Below, one piece after another: positions 1 to 14,900 of a stretch of DNA of 64,000 nt (its first letter is position 1; every line of letters starts with the position of its first letter). The translations under genes and the position numbers were made by a program. The stretch is from Gemmatimonadaceae bacterium. Lineage in GTDB: Bacteria > Gemmatimonadota > Gemmatimonadetes > Gemmatimonadales > Gemmatimonadaceae. The notes under the pieces were generated by a model. That model was not told the DNA's origin. It made no database searches and saw only the letters and a program-made list of their open reading frames with translations. The DNA is taken from NCBI GenBank assembly GCA_035606695.1, contig DATNEW010000028.1, positions 62,001 to 126,000 on the forward strand. The letters are read 5' to 3'.

Positions 1-2
1 GT

Positions 3-1031
3 GCCGGCAAAGGCGTGCGGCCGATCGAAGCGCAGATCGGTGCTTATATGGAAGCGGTGGAGCTCGCGGTCGCGGAACGATGTGCGTTGCGAGACGCCAT
101 TCAGCCCATCGATCCGCGCGACGTGTTGTCGCGAAGCTCGATGTCGGGACTCATCGATCTCTGTCCGTTGCGCGGAGTGCGGCACAATACAGCCGATTCC
201 GTCGACTGCGTCGACGCGGAAGAACTCCTCTCGGGCGCCACCGTATCTGTTCCCGCGGAGCTCGTGTTCTTTCCGTATTTGCCCTCCCAAGGCCGGCTGT
301 TCGGGAACACGACCAACGGGCTTGCGTCAGGCAGCACGGTCGCCGAAGCGACATTGCACGCGCTGCTCGAAGTGGTCGAGCGTGACGCGGTATCGTTCAT
401 GAACGTACGATCCGGCGTCCGCGGCGTTCGTCTGGACACGCTGCCCTCGACGGTCCGCGCGTTGCTCGGCGCGATCGAGTCGGCGGATTGCGAGATCGCT
501 GTGCGTGAATTGCCCAGCGAGTTCGGGCTGCCGACGTTTCACGCCGCCGTGTTCGACCGCGCGCGCATCGCGAGTCTGACCGTGGCGGCTGGCTACGGCT
601 GCCACGCCGATCCCGAAATCGCGCTGGTGCGCGCCGTGACCGAAGCATGTCAGAGCCGGCTGACCGCGATTCACGGCGGACGCGACGATCTCGATCGATG
701 CGAGGCGCGCGTCGACGCACGTCCCGCGGGCGAACATGACCGGATCGCGGAGGAACAATTCCGGCGCATGGCCGCGTGGCCGGACGTCGCGTCGTTCGAG
801 ACCGTGCGGGCATCCGTCAACGTTGGCGGCAGCGTCGATGCGGCACTCGCGCAAATCCTCGCGCATCTTCAAGCGCGCGGCGTCAACCAGGTGTGCCGCG
901 TCGCCCTTACTCTCGACGCCGACGAGATGAGCGTCGTACGCGTCATCGTGCCGACGCTCGAGTGTTTCAATCGGGACGTCGCGCGTGTCGGTCCACGTCT
1001 GCTGCGAGCGATGCATGCCCGCGTCGCGTAA
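3..1031 (+). CDS. YcaO-domain protein, 5' truncated (RiPP backbone cyclodehydratase/thioamide synthase family)
   Basis: The reading frame is open from the window edge, so the N-terminus is missing; 342 residues are visible. YcaO proteins use ATP to activate a peptide amide for attack by a side chain or by sulfide. The family signatures are present in order: a GKG segment at the very start followed by the EAVE glutamate pair, then ALLEVVERDAV and later TEACQSRL, which resemble the ATP/Mg-binding glutamate helices. The ending matches TfuA-partnered YcaO proteins and I see no PxPxP tail typical of azoline-forming ones. The next gene, a TfuA homologue, overlaps it by 17 bases. In known thioamide RiPPs and in archaeal McrA modification, YcaO+TfuA installs a thioamide. 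Family assignment is firm; the thioamide product is inferred. Confidence 0.9.
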   Translation, partial: AGKGVRPIEAQIGAYMEAVELAVAERCALRDAIQPIDPRDVLSRSSMSGLIDLCPLRGVRHNTADSVDCVDAEELLSGATVSVPAELVFFPYLPSQGRLFGNTTNGLASGSTVAEATLHALLEVVERDAVSFMNVRSGVRGVRLDTLPSTVRALLGAIESADCEIAVRELPSEFGLPTFHAAVFDRARIASLTVAAGYGCHADPEIALVRAVTEACQSRLTAIHGGRDDLDRCEARVDARPAGEHDRIAEEQFRRMAAWPDVASFETVRASVNVGGSVDAALAQILAHLQARGVNQVCRVALTLDADEMSVVRVIVPTLECFNRDVARVGPRLLRAMHARVA

Positions 1032-1737
1032 CGTCGCGTTCGTCGGCCCCACCTATGCGCCGATCGCCGACACAAGTCTCATCGAGCGCGCGGGGTTCGA
1101 GCCATGCGCGCCCGCGCGCCGCGGCGACATGGATGCGCTCGACGGTGAGCCCGGGGTGGCGGTCCTCGTGGACGGACGTTTCAACCATGCGCTCGCCGTC
1201 GGGCATGCGGAGCTGCGACGCGCGGTTGAGCGCGGATGGTCGGTCTGGGGTCTCTCGTCGATGGGCGCCATTCGCGCGTATGAATTGCGCAACCTCGGCG
1301 TTCGCGGCTTCGGTAACGTCTACGCGCACTTTCTCGCGGCGGACGACTTTCAAGACGACGAAGTGGCGCTGATGCACGCGCCCACTGCACCGTATGAAAC
1401 ATTCAGCGAGCCGCTCATACATATCCGGTACTGTCTCGCGGAGATGGTTCGTTTGGGTGAGATCGACTCCGGTGTCGCGCGACGCACGGCGGGGTATCTC
1501 AAGTCGCAATGGTTCGCGGCGCGCACACTCGACGGATTCGTGGCGGCGCTCACCACCTTCGGAGGCGACGTCGCCGCGAACTCGGCACGCGCGCACGTCG
1601 CACGCTTCGATCAATTTCGCGTCAAGACGAAGGACCTGATCGCATTCTTCGCGGAACAGCCGTGGCGCTCGACGTCGTACATCGCGACGCCGGCGCCGGC
1701 GCCGTTCTTGGACAGTCTCACCGAGGACGCTGCATGA
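1015..1737 (+). CDS. TfuA-like protein (partner of YcaO in thioamidation)
   Basis: A 240-residue protein recognisable as TfuA-like by the N-terminal FVGPT segment, DGRFNHALAVGHAELRRA, the block GLSSMGAIRAYELRNLGV, and DDEVALMH. TfuA proteins are thought to help deliver sulfur to the YcaO active site during thioamide formation. The ATG at 1015 is chosen because FVGPT starts a few residues later and upstream in-frame starts add only YcaO-overlapping sequence. It overlaps the YcaO gene by 17 bases and shares an ATGA junction with the next gene, so all are probably translated together. Assignment is by motif resemblance; biochemical role here is inferred from the pair. Confidence 0.88.
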   Translation: MPASRNVAFVGPTYAPIADTSLIERAGFEPCAPARRGDMDALDGEPGVAVLVDGRFNHALAVGHAELRRAVERGWSVWGLSSMGAIRAYELRNLGVRGFGNVYAHFLAADDFQDDEVALMHAPTAPYETFSEPLIHIRYCLAEMVRLGEIDSGVARRTAGYLKSQWFAARTLDGFVAALTTFGGDVAANSARAHVARFDQFRVKTKDLIAFFAEQPWRSTSYIATPAPAPFLDSLTEDAA

Positions 1738-2063
1738 CCTCGCAAACCAACCCGGACGCGCCAACCTCCTGGGAAGCCGGCCTCGCGCGTGGATCGATCG
1801 TGCTCGAGCTGGACGAATCCGTCCTCGACAGCGTGCAAGGCGAGCACACGGTGCTGCTCGACTACGAGCGCGGCGAGTACTACGGCCTCAATGCGGTCGC
1901 GACCGCGGTGTGGCAACAACTTCGGGCGCGGCGGCAATTTCCGGACATCGTCGCGGCTCTCACCGCCGAATACGATGTAGCCGACGAACTCGCGCGGCGC
2001 GACGTCGCGGCGTTTCTTGCCGACCTCCGCGACCGTGGCGTCGTGCGAGCGCACGCGTCATGA
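1734..2063 (+). CDS. PqqD-like RiPP recognition element protein (lasso B1)
   Basis: A 109-residue PqqD-family protein. These small winged-helix proteins bind the leader of a RiPP precursor and present it to the modifying enzymes; in split lasso systems this is protein B1. Visible signature: the strand-strand-helix segment LLDYERGEYYGLNAVATAVW (about residues 41-60), followed by a helical C-terminal half with the repeating acidic/hydrophobic pattern of the family. Its ATG overlaps the TfuA stop (ATGA), and its own stop overlaps the B2 start in the same way, as expected for a stoichiometric complex. It probably serves the leader peptidase and may also serve the YcaO; the latter is inference. 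Confidence 0.9.
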   Translation: MTSQTNPDAPTSWEAGLARGSIVLELDESVLDSVQGEHTVLLDYERGEYYGLNAVATAVWQQLRARRQFPDIVAALTAEYDVADELARRDVAAFLADLRDRGVVRAHAS

Positions 2064-2455
2064 ACGGATTGTTCGTGTTCGTTCGGTCGATGCTCCTGTT
2101 GACGCGAGTGCGCGCGGGGCTGCGGCGCACTGGTTTGCGCCCGATGGTGCAGCGGGCACGCCGCCGTCCGCTCGGCCGCGCGCGACGTGATCGCGACGCC
2201 GTCACATTTGCCCGCTCGCTCGCGACTCAGGTCGAACGAGCCGCCGCGTGCTTTCCGGGACGTGCGCGATGCCTCGAGCAATCGATCGCGCTGCTCATGC
2301 TGCTCCGCGACGCCGGCGTTGCCGCCGAGCTTCGGCTTGGCATCATCGCATTGCCGTTCACGGCGCACGCATGGGTGGAGGTAAACGGTCAGGCGATCAA
2401 CGCCGACAGCGAAACGCTCGCCACGATGCAACCGTTCCCGGAACTGCGCGGGTGA
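2060..2455 (+). CDS. Lasso peptide leader peptidase B2 (transglutaminase-like, McjB C-terminal type)
   Basis: A 131-residue protein of the B2 family, which removes the lasso leader peptide. The cysteine-protease triad can be placed: Cys71 in RCLEQSIALLMLLRDAG, His103 in FTAHAWVEVNGQ, and probably Asp116 in INADSE; the spacing resembles the McjB triad. The N-terminal 45 residues are hydrophobic then strongly basic. The gene is locked between PqqD (ATGA) and the cyclase (GTGA). The AHAWVE and RCL blocks are diagnostic for this family, so function is well supported. The expected substrate is the precursor peptide encoded on the opposite strand near 4500-4740. Confidence 0.93.
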   Translation: MNGLFVFVRSMLLLTRVRAGLRRTGLRPMVQRARRRPLGRARRDRDAVTFARSLATQVERAAACFPGRARCLEQSIALLMLLRDAGVAAELRLGIIALPFTAHAWVEVNGQAINADSETLATMQPFPELRG

Positions 2456-4143
2456 GGGGATTCCTCGCGGCGTTCGCGCCTGGTGGATCGGGAGCGGACG
2501 GACGCGCGCGCGAATGGGTGGACGATCGTCTGCGGCGCGCGCGTGGTCGCGACCAGTGGAACGCCGAGCCGCAATTCGTGACGCACGGCGATTTCGCGGC
2601 GGCGTGGTGGACCGAGCCTGGTGCCCGCGTTTCCGCGAGCCGCGTCGGCAGCATGACGATCATCGGTGACGCCCGACTCGGCGACATTTCCCTCGATCGA
2701 TTCGCCGAGTTGTATCGCGCGAACGGCGAGCGTACGCTCGATGATCTCGACGGCGAATTCGCCCTCGTACTGTACGATGACGCAGCACGTTCGGTCGTCG
2801 CCGTCCGCGACGCGTTCGGGGTCAAGCGATTGTTCTTCCGCCGCGTGGCGGAAGATGGCGCCCTGTTCGCCTCGCATCTCGACCTCCTGAGCGAGTCGAG
2901 CGTCGCCGACGGCGATTTCGCTCATTGCTATTTGACGGGCGAGCTTCCGACCGATCCAACCTGCACCGTGTGGTCGGACGTTCGAGTCGTTCCCTCGGCG
3001 ACGTCGATCTCGCTGCGGCATGGCTCGTGGCGAATGAGACGCTACTGGCAGCCGGGAGTCGCGAAGCCGGAGATTCCGCGCGGCGAGCAGGAGCAGCGCG
3101 CGGCGTTCGACGCGCATCTGCGCGCCGCGGTCACGGCATGCATCGACGCGGACGTGCCGGCGTGGTGCGAAATTTCGGGCGGTCTTGATTCCGGAACGGT
3201 GTTCGCCATCGCGCACGATGCCGGCCGCGTTGCCGGCACGTACAGTTACGTCGATGACATGCCGGGCGCGGATGAGCGGCGATTCATCAGCGCGATCGTC
3301 GGTCAGCGTCCGGTTCGCAACGATCACATCGAGGCGTCGTACCCGTGGGAGGATGACGGCGCACCGCCGCCGCTCACGGACGAGCCGCGCATCTACTACC
3401 CCTATTGGGCGCGCGATCGGTCTGCCGAGCGCATCGTGCGCGACGCGGGAGGCCGATACATCCTGAGTGGCGCGGGTTCGGACTATTATCTCTCCGGCAG
3501 CGCGGTGGTCATTGCCGACGCGCTGGCGAGCTGGCGCGTCGGCAATGCGGTCCGCGAGGCGCATGCGGTCGCCATGGCGCAGCGACGGTCGATGTGGGCG
3601 ACGCTGTGGCGGTACGGGGTGCGTCCGTGGGCGACGTCACTCGTTCGGTTCGGCGCGGACCACGACACGCACTTGCGTCGCAATTCGCGCACGTTCCTCG
3701 AGTACGCATCGACGTTGCACGAGCTGCCGCTGACCTGGCCGGCCGTGGAAAAACGATATCCATTCTTGAATCGTGCGTTGGTCGACTATGCGCTCGCGCT
3801 GCCGAGCCGCATGGTCTTTCACGACGGGCTCACGAAGCAGATGCTTCGTGGCAACGGCGCTTCGGCGCTGCTGCCGGAGATCGTTCGAGCGCGGCGGACG
3901 AAAGGGTGGATCGACGGGCGTGCGAGCTGGGCGTTGTCGCACGAACAGCGGCTCGTCGACCGACTCGTGCGCGATCCGTTGATCGCGCAGGCAGGGTGGA
4001 TTGACGGAGCGGAGCTTCGGGCGACGATTGCGCGGACGCGGACCGGGATCAGCCCGGGTGCGGTCCCCATGATGCGCGCCCTTTCGCTCGAGACCTGGCT
4101 CGCGGTGCGCACGGGACGATGGCCGCAAATCGCCCATGATTGA
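2452..4143 (+). CDS. Asparagine synthetase-like lasso cyclase (protein C)
   Basis: A 563-residue AsnB-fold protein. Lasso cyclases adenylate an Asp/Glu side chain of the core peptide and close a macrolactam with the N-terminal amine. The start is the GTG at 2452, overlapping the B2 stop, giving MRGFLAAF. There is no Cys at position 2, so the N-terminal domain cannot hydrolyse glutamine, as in lasso cyclases and unlike true AsnB. The ATP pyrophosphatase loop is SGGLDSGTVF near residue 242; GAGSDYYLSG and a C-terminal RRTKGWIDGR segment follow. Located directly after B1 and B2, so lasso cyclase is the best reading; a graspetide or house-keeping asparagine synthetase role is unlikely. Confidence 0.92.
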   Translation: MRGFLAAFAPGGSGADGRAREWVDDRLRRARGRDQWNAEPQFVTHGDFAAAWWTEPGARVSASRVGSMTIIGDARLGDISLDRFAELYRANGERTLDDLDGEFALVLYDDAARSVVAVRDAFGVKRLFFRRVAEDGALFASHLDLLSESSVADGDFAHCYLTGELPTDPTCTVWSDVRVVPSATSISLRHGSWRMRRYWQPGVAKPEIPRGEQEQRAAFDAHLRAAVTACIDADVPAWCEISGGLDSGTVFAIAHDAGRVAGTYSYVDDMPGADERRFISAIVGQRPVRNDHIEASYPWEDDGAPPPLTDEPRIYYPYWARDRSAERIVRDAGGRYILSGAGSDYYLSGSAVVIADALASWRVGNAVREAHAVAMAQRRSMWATLWRYGVRPWATSLVRFGADHDTHLRRNSRTFLEYASTLHELPLTWPAVEKRYPFLNRALVDYALALPSRMVFHDGLTKQMLRGNGASALLPEIVRARRTKGWIDGRASWALSHEQRLVDRLVRDPLIAQAGWIDGAELRATIARTRTGISPGAVPMMRALSLETWLAVRTGRWPQIAHD

Positions 4144-4192
4144 GCGATAATATCAAAACGCTCATTAACGAACAATCAACTTCAATACATGG

Positions 4193-4498
4193 TCAGCCGC
4201 CGGCGATCGCCGTGACGACGCGAATCTCGTCGCCGTCGGCGAGTGGTGCCGCCAAACCGCCCGCCAACCGTACCGGGCGGGCATTGACATACAATGCCAC
4301 AAATGGATGCGGCTGCCCGCTGGCATCGCAGAGGCGCGGCGCCAAACGCGGAAACCGGTCACGCATTTCCGACAGCGCACCCGCGACCGTATCCGCGCCG
4401 ACGACCACCGACGCAGCGGCCAGCGTCGCGAGCGACGCTGGCAACTGCACGGTGACGGAAGCCGTGGGTGTGTTGGGAGTGTTGGGAGAGTCGCTCAC
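4193..4498 (-). CDS. MoaD/ThiS-family sulfur carrier protein ending in Gly-Gly
   Basis: A 101-residue ubiquitin-like sulfur carrier candidate. The C-terminal 85 residues follow the MoaD/ThiS/CysO pattern: VTVQLPASL strand, GALSEMRDRFP helix, FVALYVNARPVR strand, LADGDEIRVVTAIAGG end. The terminal Gly-Gly is the site that is adenylated by a MoeB/ThiF-type enzyme and converted to a thiocarboxylate. The first 15 residues (Ser/Pro/Thr/Asn) are an extra tail. Start is the GTG at 4498, which overlaps the stop of the precursor peptide gene (GTGA); no ATG is available. No E1 enzyme or sulfurtransferase lies in the window. Its coupling to the precursor suggests it donates sulfur for peptide modification rather than for molybdopterin or thiamine. 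Confidence 0.85.
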   Translation of the reverse strand: MSDSPNTPNTPTASVTVQLPASLATLAAASVVVGADTVAGALSEMRDRFPRLAPRLCDASGQPHPFVALYVNARPVRLAGGLAAPLADGDEIRVVTAIAGG

Positions 4499-4737
4499 GT
4501 CTTCTTGGTGTTCTTGCCCGGCTTGCCATCCGACGGGACCCGGCCGCCGTCGCCGCCGCCACCACCGACACCCGAACCGCCGCCTTCGGTCCAGGCCAAC
4601 ATCCCGTGACATTCCATCGTATCTCCCATGGGTTCGCCCATCGTCTGCTCGACGACGTCGCCAAGATTCGTCACGGTCGGCGCCATATACGGTTTCTTGT
4701 CGCGCGAAGTCGTTTGCCCGTCGTCACGTCGTTCCAT
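4495..4737 (-). CDS. Lasso-type RiPP precursor peptide
   Basis: An 80-residue peptide with a lasso leader: Tyr17-x2-Pro20, Leu25-Gly26 and Thr32 in PYMAPTVTNLGDVVEQTM. The conserved Thr at the penultimate leader position predicts cleavage after Met33, so the core starts GEPMGDTMECHGMLAW. Gly1 of the core and Glu9 fit a nine-residue macrolactam ring. The core also holds Cys10 and His11. A Gly-rich run (about residues 52-65) and a basic tail ending in KKT follow; whether they belong to the product or are trimmed is not visible. The ATG at 4737 has AGGCGG six bases upstream. The gene faces the biosynthetic operon and is translationally coupled to the sulfur carrier. Confidence 0.88.
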   Translation of the reverse strand: MERRDDGQTTSRDKKPYMAPTVTNLGDVVEQTMGEPMGDTMECHGMLAWTEGGGSGVGGGGGDGGRVPSDGKPGKNTKKT

Positions 4738-4793: not shown

Positions 4794-7700
4794 TCATGCG
4801 CTCATTGGCCGCAATGCGTGCTGACGAGCGGCACGCGGTGATTCGGCGCGCGCGGCCAGCGCGGCAAGAACGGCCGGAGGGTCGTAGACCTCTCGCCGAA
4901 TGTCATTCAGATAACGCCTCGCAAACTGGCGCGCCGCCGGGGTCTCGCCTGTCGCATCGAGATGCGCGGCATACACCGCCGCCGGCCAGTCGTGCCAGAA
5001 ATCAGGACGCTCGAAGTACCGACGCATGCCGTCGGCGATCATCGAAACATCGTCCTCGCGGCCGAGCCGCGTGCGCGCGTGCAGGTGGATTGCGAGCATG
5101 CGGAGACCCCACGCTGCCGCGTGATGTTCGATCGCGCGATCGAGCGACGGTGCGCGTCGAAGCGCTTCTTCCGGATCGCCGTGCCGCGCCTCGAGCTCCG
5201 CCTCGACGGTCGGCAGCACGATGTCCTTGAACATTCCGATGCCCCGCGAGCCGAGGGTCTGGATCGGACCGCGCGCTTCGTCGAGCAAGCGTCGCGTGAC
5301 CGCCGGCGCGTCCACGTCGAGGCTCATGCCGATCAACCGTTGCCGCGCGATGATCATTCCGCCAAGCGCGCCGCTGCGGGAATACAACTCAATGGCTTCG
5401 GCTAACGCCGCTCGTGCGTCAGCGAATCGTCCTGTGAGCCGGTACCCGACTCCAGCAAAGTCCAATGCTCCTGCGAGGCGGCTCGTGTCGCCCGCCGCTC
5501 GACATCGCGCCGTCAACTGTTTCGCGAGCTCGAGATATTTGTGCACGTCGCCGAACCGTCGGTGAAACAGCAGCTCGATGTTGGTTCGATCCCACTTCTC
5601 TGATTCCGTTTGTGGCTCGAGCGATCGCGCGATCGCGTAGGCATCGTGCAACAACGACGACGACTTGACCTCCGCCATCTTCGCCGTCTCCTTGGCGGCC
5701 CGGAGCCGATGACCCACCGACGCATGCTCGGCGGACGCGCACCGAAGCATCCGTTGGAGATAGACCGACCAATCGCCGCCGGCATCGACTACCGCGCGTT
5801 CGCGATCCAGCTCGAACGGATTGTGCGCGTCGTGCATCGGATCGACTTCGCGCGCCAGCTGCTCGTACCGATCGACTTCCTCGATGACTTTCGTCGGAAG
5901 ACCCGCGTGAACGAGCAGCTCGATGCGGCGGCGCCGAAGCGCGAGCGATTCGCGCGCATCCTTGACCTGACGAATGGCGCGTTCGCATGCCTCAGCCGCC
6001 GCGTCCGGAAACCCGCTTTGTGCGAGATGCTCGGCGCCGCGCTGCAGCGTGCGAAGTCCATCTTCGCCCAGTCCCGCGTTTTCCCAATGCCGCACCGTCT
6101 CCCACAACAGCGCGAGCGATGGCTGTTCAGCGAGCTCCTGCTGCATGCCTTCCGCGGCATAGCGGTGCAGCAGTCGCGCGACTTGCGGCGACACGCGCGT
6201 CAACGCCGCATCCGACCACATGCCGTGACCGACGAGGATGCCCGCGGAATCCGTCTTGAGAATTCCGGCCGCGTCCAGCTCGATGACCGCGTCGACGAAT
6301 GGCGCGCGAGGCAGTTGCGCGACGTGCTCGACGCGCGCCATCGTAGCATACGGACCGAGGATGGCGGCGACCTGCAGAATGCGCAGCGCCGACGCGCTGA
6401 GTGTGTCGAGTGAGCCGTCGAAGGCGTCCGTGAGCGAGCGCGGCGGCGCACCGGCTGACTGTCCCTGGTGCCGCGCCAACTCGATCAGGAAAAGCGGATT
6501 GCCGGCGCCGCGCGCGGCCACGTCGGCGCGTACGTGCGCGCCGAGCGGACGGCCGGACTGGGCTTCCAGATCAGCGAGTAGCGCGTCCGCGGCCTCAGTG
6601 TCGAGCGGATCGATGGCGACGACCGGAGCAACCGTCGTCAACTCGTCGTCGCCCCGGCCGGGGCGGTGCGACATCACGATCGCGACTGCGTGACTGCCCG
6701 CCCACGGGACCAGGTCTTTCCAGAACGCGACGCTGGCCGCATCCATCCACTGCGCATCGTCCACCGCGATGACCAGCGGCGACTCCCAGGTGACGGCTGC
6801 CAGAAGATCGATCAACGCGCTCATCAAGCGGCGGCGAACGAGCTGCGGACTTGGAAGATTCTCACGCTCGTGCGGCGCCGCTTCACCCGAGCCCGGCTGG
6901 AGGAAGCGGTCGATTTCGGCGAGCGCTTCGGGCGCGCATCCCGCGGCGCCGCGCATCAACCGCGCCTCGTGCGCGAGCGTCGCGACGACCGTGAGCGGCC
7001 GACGGCTGTCGCTGCGTTGACAGCGGAGCCGAATGGGACGCATGCGCGCCGCGCGGGCTTGCGCGATGGTTTCGTCGAGCAGTCGCGTCTTCCCGATGCC
7101 GGCCGGACCGACGAGCAAGAGTGCGCCGCCTTGTCCGAGTCGGGCGACGCGAAGCAGCTCGGCGAGTTGTGCCAGCGGCGCGTCCCTGCCGACGAGCCGT
7201 GGGATCGGCGAGAAGCGAGGCTCCGGCGTGCCTTTGATTCGCTGCACCAGCAACCGTCCTTCGACCTGCAGCTCGGGTCTGTCTTCGGTGGCGCGGAGGA
7301 ACGCTTCAAGTGTCTGCAGCGCCGTTTCGCGATCGCCGACCCGACAGAGACCGTCGGCCAGGCTCAACACCGCGCTCTCGTTCCAACGATCGACGCGCAG
7401 CACTGCCTCGGCGAGTGAGATCACGGTCGGCCATTGGCCATGCTCGCGCGCGACGTTCGCGCGCTCGTTCAACGTTCGCGTCGCTCTGACGCGCAGCAGC
7501 TCGCGCTGTTCGTCGAGCCACCGCTCGAACGCGGCGGAGAAGGTCGGCGCGTAGGACGGAAGCAGCGGTGCGATCTCATCCGGCGGCAGCGCCGCGACGT
7601 GATCGGTATCGATGTCGACGATCGACGCGGGCAACGAGAGCACGTCGCCCGCTTCCGTAAATGGAAGACCGAGGCGGCGCAGCTTGGCCAGGAGCCAGCG

Positions 7701-7961
7701 CAGGCGGCTGCGTTGCGTGGCCGCGTCCGCGTCCGGCCACAGGAGCAGCGCCATTTCGTCGCGCGTCCAACGTCGCCCGCGGTCGAGCGCGAACAACAGC
7801 AGCGCCGCCGTCACGACGACGGAGCGTCCGTTCAGCTCGCGGTCGTTGATGCTGGCCGCGACTCGCCCAAAGAGGGTGATCCGAAGCGACGTAGCACGGC
7901 CGTCGGAAGCGCGAGACGCGGGAATTTGTATGGACACCGAAACAGAAGTTGTGCGCCGCAC
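4794..7961 (-). CDS. BTAD/AAA transcriptional activator with C-terminal repeat region
   Basis: A 1055-residue regulator built like large SARP/MalT-type activators. Residues about 27-110 look like an OmpR-type winged helix (LRITLFGRV start; WTRDEMALLLWPDA), followed by a bacterial transcriptional activation (TPR-like) domain to about 255. An AAA ATPase follows with Walker A GPAGIGKT near residue 283 and Walker B-like PLVIAVDDAQWMD near 395. The C-terminal 550 residues are Ala/Leu/Arg-rich helical repeats, probably TPR. It ends 56 bases before the precursor start on the same strand, so it could be cotranscribed with it or activate it. The signal it senses cannot be read from sequence. Confidence 0.85.
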   Translation of the reverse strand: MRRTTSVSVSIQIPASRASDGRATSLRITLFGRVAASINDRELNGRSVVVTAALLLFALDRGRRWTRDEMALLLWPDADAATQRSRLRWLLAKLRRLGLPFTEAGDVLSLPASIVDIDTDHVAALPPDEIAPLLPSYAPTFSAAFERWLDEQRELLRVRATRTLNERANVAREHGQWPTVISLAEAVLRVDRWNESAVLSLADGLCRVGDRETALQTLEAFLRATEDRPELQVEGRLLVQRIKGTPEPRFSPIPRLVGRDAPLAQLAELLRVARLGQGGALLLVGPAGIGKTRLLDETIAQARAARMRPIRLRCQRSDSRRPLTVVATLAHEARLMRGAAGCAPEALAEIDRFLQPGSGEAAPHERENLPSPQLVRRRLMSALIDLLAAVTWESPLVIAVDDAQWMDAASVAFWKDLVPWAGSHAVAIVMSHRPGRGDDELTTVAPVVAIDPLDTEAADALLADLEAQSGRPLGAHVRADVAARGAGNPLFLIELARHQGQSAGAPPRSLTDAFDGSLDTLSASALRILQVAAILGPYATMARVEHVAQLPRAPFVDAVIELDAAGILKTDSAGILVGHGMWSDAALTRVSPQVARLLHRYAAEGMQQELAEQPSLALLWETVRHWENAGLGEDGLRTLQRGAEHLAQSGFPDAAAEACERAIRQVKDARESLALRRRRIELLVHAGLPTKVIEEVDRYEQLAREVDPMHDAHNPFELDRERAVVDAGGDWSVYLQRMLRCASAEHASVGHRLRAAKETAKMAEVKSSSLLHDAYAIARSLEPQTESEKWDRTNIELLFHRRFGDVHKYLELAKQLTARCRAAGDTSRLAGALDFAGVGYRLTGRFADARAALAEAIELYSRSGALGGMIIARQRLIGMSLDVDAPAVTRRLLDEARGPIQTLGSRGIGMFKDIVLPTVEAELEARHGDPEEALRRAPSLDRAIEHHAAAWGLRMLAIHLHARTRLGREDDVSMIADGMRRYFERPDFWHDWPAAVYAAHLDATGETPAARQFARRYLNDIRREVYDPPAVLAALAARAESPRAARQHALRPMSA

Positions 7962-11961: not shown

Positions 11962-14900
11962 TCATGCTGACGCGTCAACGTGCAGAAGCATGCTTGCGAG
12001 GAGCTGTGGGTCGCGACAAACCACCAAGCCCCACACGCCCTCGCGCCCCCAGCGATTGACGGCCGAGACCCAACGGCGAGCGGCTTGGTGCTTCGCTCGA
12101 TCTTGCTCGGTTTCCTCCCCCTTGATCTCGACCAGAACGTGTGCGCCGTTCGTGAGTCGAACCACGAAATCGGGATAGTACGCGTGCGCTACCCCTAGGT
12201 ACTCGTACGGGATGGAAAGTTCCAGGTGATCGTTGCGCGCATACGCCGCGACGACGTTCGATTGCTCCAGGCGGAAGACCGCAGCCTGTTCCCAGGTGTC
12301 GGTGTCGGCTACGACCTGATCGATCTGGCTTTTCGTCGTCGCGATGCAGGGTCGAATCGTCTTGAAGCTCACGCGACTCGTGTCACCGATACGCTGCGTG
12401 CGGTTGAGCAGTGGAAGCAGTGGGAGCTCGCCCGCCGCATCGTCCGGCTCGATGGCCGCGACAAGCCGTTCGACCGTGCGTTGCGTGTAGGTCTGAAGTC
12501 CGAGCTCACGCATATCGCAACCGCGTGTCGACACGCGTGTGCCGACGTATTCGGAGACGAGGCGGAATACTTGCGGAAAGAGCTGATGCCTCGAAACAAG
12601 TGAGAGTTTCGCCGCCTTTCCCTCCGTGAGTCGGCGAACGACCTCACGCGCAATCTCGAACTCGATAGTCTGCAGATGCGTGGATTCGTAGAATGCCTGC
12701 CGGTCCTGCAACTGGAGAGCGAAGCCCCCCGCGACATCCGGTCCTCCGACCTGATGACTCACCTGCGGCTTGACGAATACCGCGGTCGGATTCCGATCCG
12801 GCTCGAGAACGATCGGTTCGATCGAGGAAATGTCCGCGCGAATGAGATTGTGGCGCAACGCGACAACGTAGCCCTCGACAACCGGGAACCGAATCATGAA
12901 CTCCGAGCGCTCGGGCAATGAGCGCACGTGATTTTTCGGGCTGTCGTCGGGAGTCGGCGCGCCGACTTCGCGACCCTTGAACGGGATGACAGAGAACGGA
13001 ATGCCATACACGTCCACGTATTCTTCGGTCAGCAGCCCCGTGCTCGGGTCGGGAGTGTAGTCCATCCGTCGCAAACCGCGGCCGACCACCTGCTCGCACA
13101 GCAGTTGGCTGCCGAACGCGCGCAAACCAAGAATATGCGTCACGTTGTTCGCGTCCCAACCTTCATTCAGCATCTGCACGCTGACCACGCACCGAATATG
13201 TTCGCCCGGCGTCCCGGGTTTCCCGACGGAGGCGACGATTTGGCGAATGCGCTCCGCCGCGTCTTTCTTACCACCGTTCGGTCCGGTTTCGGCTTGCTCG
13301 AGCTCCCGCGAATCGATACGCAGGGTGTGCTTCCTTTGCGCCGAGTTGCTGAAATACTCCGGAAAAAGAGAGCCTTGGCCGAATATCGTCTTCGTCGTGG
13401 ACTTCGGTGCTCGCCTGCTCGCGCTCTCTTCGTCCTCGTCCTCAACATCGCTCGACTCGGCGGTCACCGTTCGCTCGCCAGAGATCCGTTCGTAAAACTC
13501 CTCGGCGATATCGACGTTGTCGCAAACGACAATGAGAACGGGCGGGATGAATTCCTGGCCGGGCTTCGCCATCGCCATTCGCTCGAAGCGCTCAATCCAT
13601 TGACTCGCGAGCGTCGCGAGCGCGTCCTCGGCATTCCGCCACACGATCTCGGGTTTCGGCTTACCGCCAGGCAGCTTCTCGCCGGGGGCCAAACGCTCCG
13701 TGATGTGCCGCCACAACGCAAAATACTTGGGCTCCGGCCGACCGGTCGTGTCACTGACGGGTATTCGCGGAATCTTCACGATTCCACTTTCGATCGCATC
13801 GACCAATCCGAAGTCACTCACCAGCCAAGGGAACGGTGCTCCTTCCGTGTACCCGCTCCCATGCAGATAGAAGGGCGTCGCCGAGAGATCGATGCAGCAA
13901 TGGATACCGACGGACGCGTTGATGCGATCGAGACCCGCAATCCAAACCGTCGCCTCCTCGCGCTCCGCTCGCTCCTCGCGCGAGAATTCAGCGTCGGTCA
14001 CGCGCGCCGGCCGATAGGCGTGATGTGCCTCATCGTTGAACACGAGAATTGGACCGCGGCGCGCGAGCTCTCCGAGCACGCGCTTCGCAAAGGCATCATT
14101 GGACTCGATGCCTTTGTTCACAACCGTATAGGTCTTGCCGCCGTCGGCGTGCGGAGACTCGAGCGCGAACGCGTGCCAGTTCGTGACGAGCAGGGCGCCC
14201 TTGCGCAGCTCCGGCCAGAGGGGCGATGGAACGAGATCGAACATCTCGTAGTAGTTGCCTGGCTCATCAGGCCTGAGCACCTGAAGGCGTTCCTTGATCG
14301 TGATATTGGGACACACGATCAACGCCGCGCTGGGAAATCGATCGTTGCCAGGCACGCGGCCGCGATTGCAGAATGACCATGCGACGAGCATCGCCATGAC
14401 TACGGTTTTCCCGCTCCCCGTCGCCATCTTACACCCGTAACGGAACAACGGGGGGAGTTCAGCCTCGTTCGGCGCGTCGACCATCGAGGCGTGTCGTCCG
14501 ACGCGTTCCTCGAGCGCAAATGAGACACGTTCATCCCGGCGCAGACGCTCGTAGTCTTCCAGCGACAGCTTGGGTTTGAACCGCGGCGATCGATGTGTGC
14601 CGAGAATCTCGTTCAGGTAGATGATCGTCTCGACTGCCTCGCGCTGGCAGAAAAACAGGGGTCGCGATCGCTCCGCTCGAGTCCAGTGACGGAGCAACTG
14701 CTTTGTCACCGGCGTCGCGCCTTCCCATTCCGACTCACGCCACCGTCGAACGTCCTCGCGAAGAGCGTTTACGAGCTCGAGGGGATCGCTCTCCTCCTGC
14801 GCGATGAGCGAGAGTTGGCCTCCGCTCGTGCGTTCTGATCGAAACCAATAACTCGCCTCTCGGCGGCCTTCAGTTCGAGTCGCGGCTCCCATGTTCGTGT

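Follow-up and report, generated by a model that had tools for sequence, protein, structure and literature searches.

A candidate thioamidated lasso peptide gene cluster with a CysO-like sulfur carrier in a Gemmatimonadaceae bacterium

Genes of the cluster

We have studied a gene cluster found at the start of a 64,000-nucleotide stretch of DNA, which we will call the window, from a Gemmatimonadaceae bacterium (assembly GCA_035606695.1, contig DATNEW010000028.1, positions 62,001–126,000, forward strand). The cluster contains the enzymes of a lasso peptide pathway, a YcaO and a TfuA-like protein, and a small sulfur carrier whose gene is joined to that of the precursor. A preliminary description of this DNA had proposed as its product a lasso peptide with one or more thioamides, a ribosomally synthesized and post-translationally modified peptide (RiPP) with its own sulfur donor. 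The seven genes which it named are all present, according to Pfam, NCBIfam and structure matches, and their arrangement is also the one it gave, overlapping enzyme genes on the plus strand and a precursor coupled to a ThiS-like gene on the minus strand:

1..1031, plus strand: YcaO (thioamide-forming type), 3' part of the gene; PF02624, E=3.7e-60; closest solved structure MJ1094, E=1.1e-35
1015..1737, plus strand: TfuA-like protein, 240 aa; PF07812, E=1.4e-30; solved TfuA 6xp8, E=5.4e-14
1734..2063, plus strand: lasso B1, PqqD-type precursor recognition element (RRE); PF05402, E=5e-21
2060..2455, plus strand: lasso B2, transglutaminase-like leader peptidase; NF033537 (lasso_biosyn_B2), 78 bits, cut-off 33
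2452..4143, plus strand: lasso C, asparagine-synthetase-like macrolactam cyclase; PF00733, E=1.7e-25; SGGLDS motif, no Cys2
4193..4498, minus strand: CysO-like sulfur carrier of the ThiS/MoaD family, 101 aa; PF02597, E=4.8e-10
4495..4737, minus strand: lasso precursor, 80 aa; NF033521 (lasso_leader_L3) at its cut-off, 19/19 bits; leader profile, E=2e-8

The enzyme genes follow each other in the order YcaO, TfuA, B1, B2 and C. YcaO and TfuA overlap by 17 bp; TfuA/B1, B1/B2 and B2/C overlap by 4 bp each. The YcaO gene is only partly inside the window: it starts about 240 bp before the first base and as a whole occupies L002:11760-13031, with 423 aa counted from the first possible start (position 12001 of locus L002 is window position 1). 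The precursor and carrier genes are convergent to the enzyme genes and overlap by 4 bp, the GTG start of the carrier lying on the stop of the precursor. The G+C content is even, 66.3% in the cluster and 64.9% in the window. This evenness, together with the overlapping frames across the TfuA/B1 border, makes an assembly join at that border unlikely.

The best NCBIfam model for YcaO is methan_mark_1 (YcaO-related McrA-glycine thioamidation protein), with 241 bits, below the equivalog cut-off of 365; the SagD model gives 111 bits. Its ATP-site residues E98, E101, E204, E207, E295 and Q298 are kept in 66–67 of 67 aligned rows. The best model for TfuA is also of the McrA-glycine thioamidation type, with a score below the equivalog cut-off, and it has the conserved pair S82 (64 of 65 homologues) and K204 (65 of 65). 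A YcaO with an intact ATP site beside a TfuA with a Ser-Lys pair is what characterizes the YcaO-TfuA thioamidated RiPPs. According to one report, TfuA hydrolyses ThiS-COSH by a Ser-Lys pair and delivers sulfide to YcaO (PMC13185837); similar statements are found in two others (PMC8939145, PMC13063428). The link between sulfur carrier and TfuA suggested in the preliminary description has therefore a precedent, and we predict that the window TfuA is a thiocarboxylate hydrolase and sulfide donor to YcaO.

The lasso part of the cluster is complete in its enzymes: an RRE (B1), a Cys/His peptidase (B2) and a cyclase (C). The solved relatives of B1, TbiB1 and TfuB1, are both lasso RREs. In B2, Cys71 and His103 are invariant in all 44 homologue rows. 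C is 34–35% identical over 505–518 aa to C proteins which adjoin B1/B2 in related genomes. The absence of Cys2, already pointed out in the preliminary description, is ordinary for lasso cyclases, since most C proteins of related genomes share it; we have not retained it as a special feature.

Against a leader profile drawn from 22 related lasso precursors, the precursor scores 32.0 bits (E=2e-8); 5,000 shuffles give at most 13.2 bits. Its leader DKKPYMAPTVTNLGDVVEQT is closely similar to lasso leaders found elsewhere in the phylum, such as MTGKKPYVAPTVTAHGGAVVRT and MDRKPYVAPTVTRHGSAVEQT in locus L086. The aligned relatives suggest that the leader is cut one residue after a conserved Thr, which would thus be at position −2, leaving Gly1 as the first residue. 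The predicted core is GEPMGDTMECHGMLAWTEGGGSGVGGGGGDGGRVPSDGKPGKNTKKT, with 47 residues and a Gly-rich tail. It has a single Cys (Cys10) and three Met, and also contains Ser and Thr. Within core positions 7–9 only Glu9 is acidic, so that a nine-residue ring Gly1-Glu9 is predicted. The monoisotopic mass calculated for the whole core is 4498.016 Da as a macrolactam and 4513.993 Da as a macrolactam bearing one thioamide; this difference of +15.977 Da is close to the +15.995 Da of an oxidation. Leader, Thr, Gly1 and Glu9 are together the features of a lasso precursor.

The carrier has a beta-grasp family match above the PF02597 cut-off and ends in Ala-Gly-Gly, as ThiS and CysO carriers do with their final Gly-Gly. 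Its closest solved structures are CysO of Mycobacterium tuberculosis (3dwg, E=2e-13) and the carrier 4n6e; MoaD-type chains rank behind them. A full ThiF match occurs only once in the genome, on another contig (C50): an E1-type protein of 400 residues with a C-terminal rhodanese-like stretch. This is the architecture of MoeZ, which charges CysO and forms its thiocarboxylate (PMC3227635).

Occurrence in other genomes

The same combination was sought in 395 genomes from the phylum and 179 from the family, in 21 from a further family (f6, which supplies the nearest relatives of the lasso and YcaO proteins), and in 395 Actinomycete and 376 Alphaproteobacterial genomes. To these we added nine named loci from a single-protein contig scan limited to close relatives, and four plasmid loci. 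Coverage of the Actinomycetes and Alphaproteobacteria is sparse, with flanking DNA limited to 1.5 kb for a few of the Alphaproteobacterial TfuA genes; a published cluster of Nonomuraea solani, discussed below, lies outside the sample. Among these more than 1,000 genomes there is no other locus with lasso genes and YcaO-TfuA. In the phylum TfuA is found in 7 of 395 genomes and lasso B2 in 120, and only in the window genome are they side by side. Conservation of the whole set in related genomes, which the preliminary description had asked for, was therefore not found.

Three loci with PqqD-type matches about 5 kb from TfuA (L132, L135 and L136) lack B2 and C and were rejected as lasso-TfuA loci. 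Another locus, L024, was also discarded: its asparagine synthase has an intact Cys2, and B1/B2 are missing. In that locus (L024:7268-13348) two YcaO genes and a TfuA adjoin the synthase.

The carrier behaves differently from the whole set. CysO-like carriers adjoin TfuA at four of the seven phylum loci (L002, L023, L025 and L027), a recurrence which agrees with the association claimed at the outset. Among loci with widely covered flanks, a carrier is beside YcaO-TfuA in 1 of 26 Actinomycete (L139) and 1 of 20 Alphaproteobacterial loci (L190). None of the 24 lasso-only loci has one. The window and L023 are paired (support 100/98) in a tree of 68 TfuA rows, as part of a five-member clade (100/100) in which four members have a carrier alongside; two plasmid rows of this clade were chosen as best matches, so that this count does not represent an unbiased sample. 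The carrier label is clustered on the tree: only 1 of 500 shuffles was as low. A tblastn search of the plasmids with ThiS gave no match at E 1e-5, yet their carriers were detected by profile. Genome context connects TfuA with a CysO-like carrier in several phyla.

Related clusters

The lasso and thioamidation parts of the cluster have different relatives. Five lasso clusters (L083, L084, L085, L086 and L087) share with the window the order B1-B2-C, a C protein about 31–35% identical, a leader of the form KKPYxxPxxTxxG...T and a core which begins with Gly. They differ in that the precursor is on the same strand just after C, the cores are short and have no Cys, and YcaO, TfuA and carrier are all missing.

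The sister clusters of the window YcaO-TfuA are either of lanthipeptide type or without a recognised scaffold. L023 (genome G322) has the YcaO (48%) and TfuA (55%) closest to those of the window, together with a CysO-like carrier ending in Gly-Gly (41%). Unlike the window, L023, L025 and L027 have a class II lanthipeptide synthetase scaffold or a Nif11-leader precursor and no lasso genes; L023 and L025 also differ by their tandem YcaO genes. L027 has a Nif11 precursor, YcaO, TfuA and carrier. Family f6, to which L023 belongs, is also the source of the nearest lasso C proteins, and this fits an assembly of the window cluster from that pool.

Two of these loci deserve a description of their own. 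In L023:297-8478 there is a LanM-type gene, two near-identical precursor candidates with Cys-rich core ends, tandem YcaO genes, TfuA and the carrier: it is a candidate thioamidated lanthipeptide pathway. In L025:2311-16773 a LanM-type gene and a Nif11 precursor are accompanied by two YcaO genes, TfuA, an alcohol dehydrogenase and a CysO-like carrier, the last followed by a ThiF-rhodanese gene, again with the architecture of MoeZ: apparently a complete sulfur relay for thioamidation.

The two closest plasmid relatives, operons of Paraburkholderia megapolitana and Pantoea ananatis, belong to the same TfuA clade and also have the carrier within the operon, with a gene for a ThiF activating enzyme adjoining it; they differ from the window by the absence of lasso genes. 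Their order is YcaO, TfuA, a hypothetical protein, a MoaD/ThiS carrier and ThiF (L192:6721-10831 and L193:6765-10812, respectively). The Pantoea carrier is unannotated and was found by profile. The thioamidation of McrA in methanogens uses the same YcaO-TfuA pair with ThiS-COSH as published sulfur donor, but its substrate is a large enzyme and not a RiPP precursor.

A thioamidated lasso peptide by name gave no match in our literature search, which omitted most subscription papers. A 2026 paper gives four characterised classes of YcaO-TfuA peptides (thioviridamide-like, thiovarsolins, thiopeptides and chimeric lanthipeptides) and adds one more, none of them lasso peptides (PMC13174530). A 2022 review of the known lasso modifications does not include the thioamide (PMC9266682). 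Lasso tying and backbone thioamidation are each known, and a described peptide which combines both was not found in the literature searched. The statement in the preliminary description that no such cluster has been characterised holds to this extent. It has to be qualified by a 2021 survey which predicts an albusnodin-like precursor, of the lasso family, in a TfuA cluster of Nonomuraea solani (PMC8120280). This case is known from prediction only, and in the survey text consulted there is no mention of lasso B/C genes accompanied by a co-translated carrier; even so, the idea of a lasso/TfuA hybrid is not wholly without precedent.

Interpretation of the cluster

The cluster looks like an ordinary lasso cassette (precursor, B1, B2 and C) to which a thioamidation cassette (YcaO, TfuA and carrier) has been joined. 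From its gene content we consider it probable that the locus is a hybrid RiPP pathway, whose product would be a lasso peptide with one or more backbone thioamides. With somewhat less assurance we also favour the view that it would be the first of the lasso peptides to have a thioamide in its backbone, made by means of a carrier translationally coupled to its precursor.

In the pathway that we propose, the ThiF-rhodanese protein encoded elsewhere in the genome would adenylate the C-terminal Gly-Gly of the carrier and load it with sulfur. TfuA would hydrolyse the carrier thiocarboxylate and hand sulfide to YcaO. YcaO would phosphorylate a backbone amide of the precursor, probably with the leader held by B1, and sulfide would displace the phosphate to give the thioamide. 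B2 would then cut the leader one residue after the conserved Thr and free Gly1; finally C would activate Glu9 and join it to Gly1, with the tail threaded and trapped in the ring. The order of the steps is suggested by analogy: phosphorylation, methylation, hydroxylation and epimerisation of lasso peptides act on the linear precursor, and B1 helps in the last two (PMC9266682), so that thioamidation before removal of the leader is likely. If a thioamide were placed close to the core stretch Met-Glu-Cys-His-Gly-Met, the lasso could become a soft-metal ligand, but this is speculation.

Several features weigh against a thioamidated lasso peptide. The full set is found only once, so that the combination shows no conservation across genomes. 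Precursor and carrier are encoded on the strand opposite to the enzymes, and no transporter was identified among the genes adjoining the cluster. The core is longer than those of its relatives, with its long Gly-rich tail, and no feature in it marks a site for the thioamide. What stands from the preliminary description is a single operon of lasso and YcaO-TfuA enzymes with one lasso precursor and a carrier suited to TfuA; its expectation of a conserved set does not.

It is also conceivable, though unlikely, that two pathways simply adjoin each other, an ordinary lasso peptide and a YcaO-TfuA system which acts on another peptide or protein. Elsewhere in the phylum the thioamidation cassette is indeed attached to lanthipeptide and not to lasso clusters, and separate RiPP pathways co-located with lasso clusters are known in Bacillota (PMC13381572). 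In the window, however, the genes of TfuA and B1 share 4 bp of the same strand, no second precursor candidate was recognised beside the YcaO gene, and the carrier which suits TfuA overlaps the lasso precursor. That the carrier is instead the MoaD, ThiS or cysteine-forming CysO of the cell, placed here by chance, we find quite improbable. In favour of such a role, it is the sole CysO-like protein which the ThiS profile finds in the genome, but the gene for MoaD lies on another contig (C35), within a moaA-moaE-moaD run, no cysM was identified next to the carrier gene, and its relatives recur beside YcaO-TfuA in other genomes. This recurrence changes one point of the original proposal: the carrier fits TfuA, but it is better described as dedicated to YcaO-TfuA than to the peptide, as its relatives are also found in lanthipeptide clusters.

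A still smaller chance is given to an azoline, formed by YcaO at Cys10 or at a Thr or Ser of the core, in place of the thioamide. YcaO enzymes form azolines in many RiPPs and the core has suitable residues. Against it, the E1-like or ocin-ThiF cyclodehydratase partner which would characterize a linear azol(in)e-containing peptide was not recognised among the neighbouring genes searched, YcaO fits the McrA-glycine model better than SagD, and TfuA and the sulfur carrier would have no purpose. The least probable case is a decayed or silent cluster. It would agree with the single occurrence and with a scan, covering the sigma-70 consensus only, in which no promoter-like site rose above the shuffle level; but all reading frames are intact, the overlaps are preserved and the catalytic residues are present.

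If a lasso peptide with a thioamide is indeed made, altered hydrogen bonding and resistance to proteases would be added to a scaffold which is already robust. With its link of TfuA to a carrier, this small operon also opens the physiological sulfur route of peptide thioamidation to direct tests.

Neighbouring genes

A regulator gene shares the strand of the precursor and lies a short way upstream of it:

4794..7961, minus strand: BTAD/AAA_16/TPR regulator; PF13191, E=5.7e-21; weak TOMM_kin_cyc match

It is possibly the regulator of the cluster, although its membership is uncertain. Directly before the YcaO gene, L002:10993-11640 has the aspect of a coding sequence, for a protein of 215 residues without family match. 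About 2.3 kb before YcaO, at L002:6507-9469, there are two genes similar to M16-type peptidases, assigned by eye, which overlap by 4 bp; they might be involved in processing of the product or be unrelated to it.

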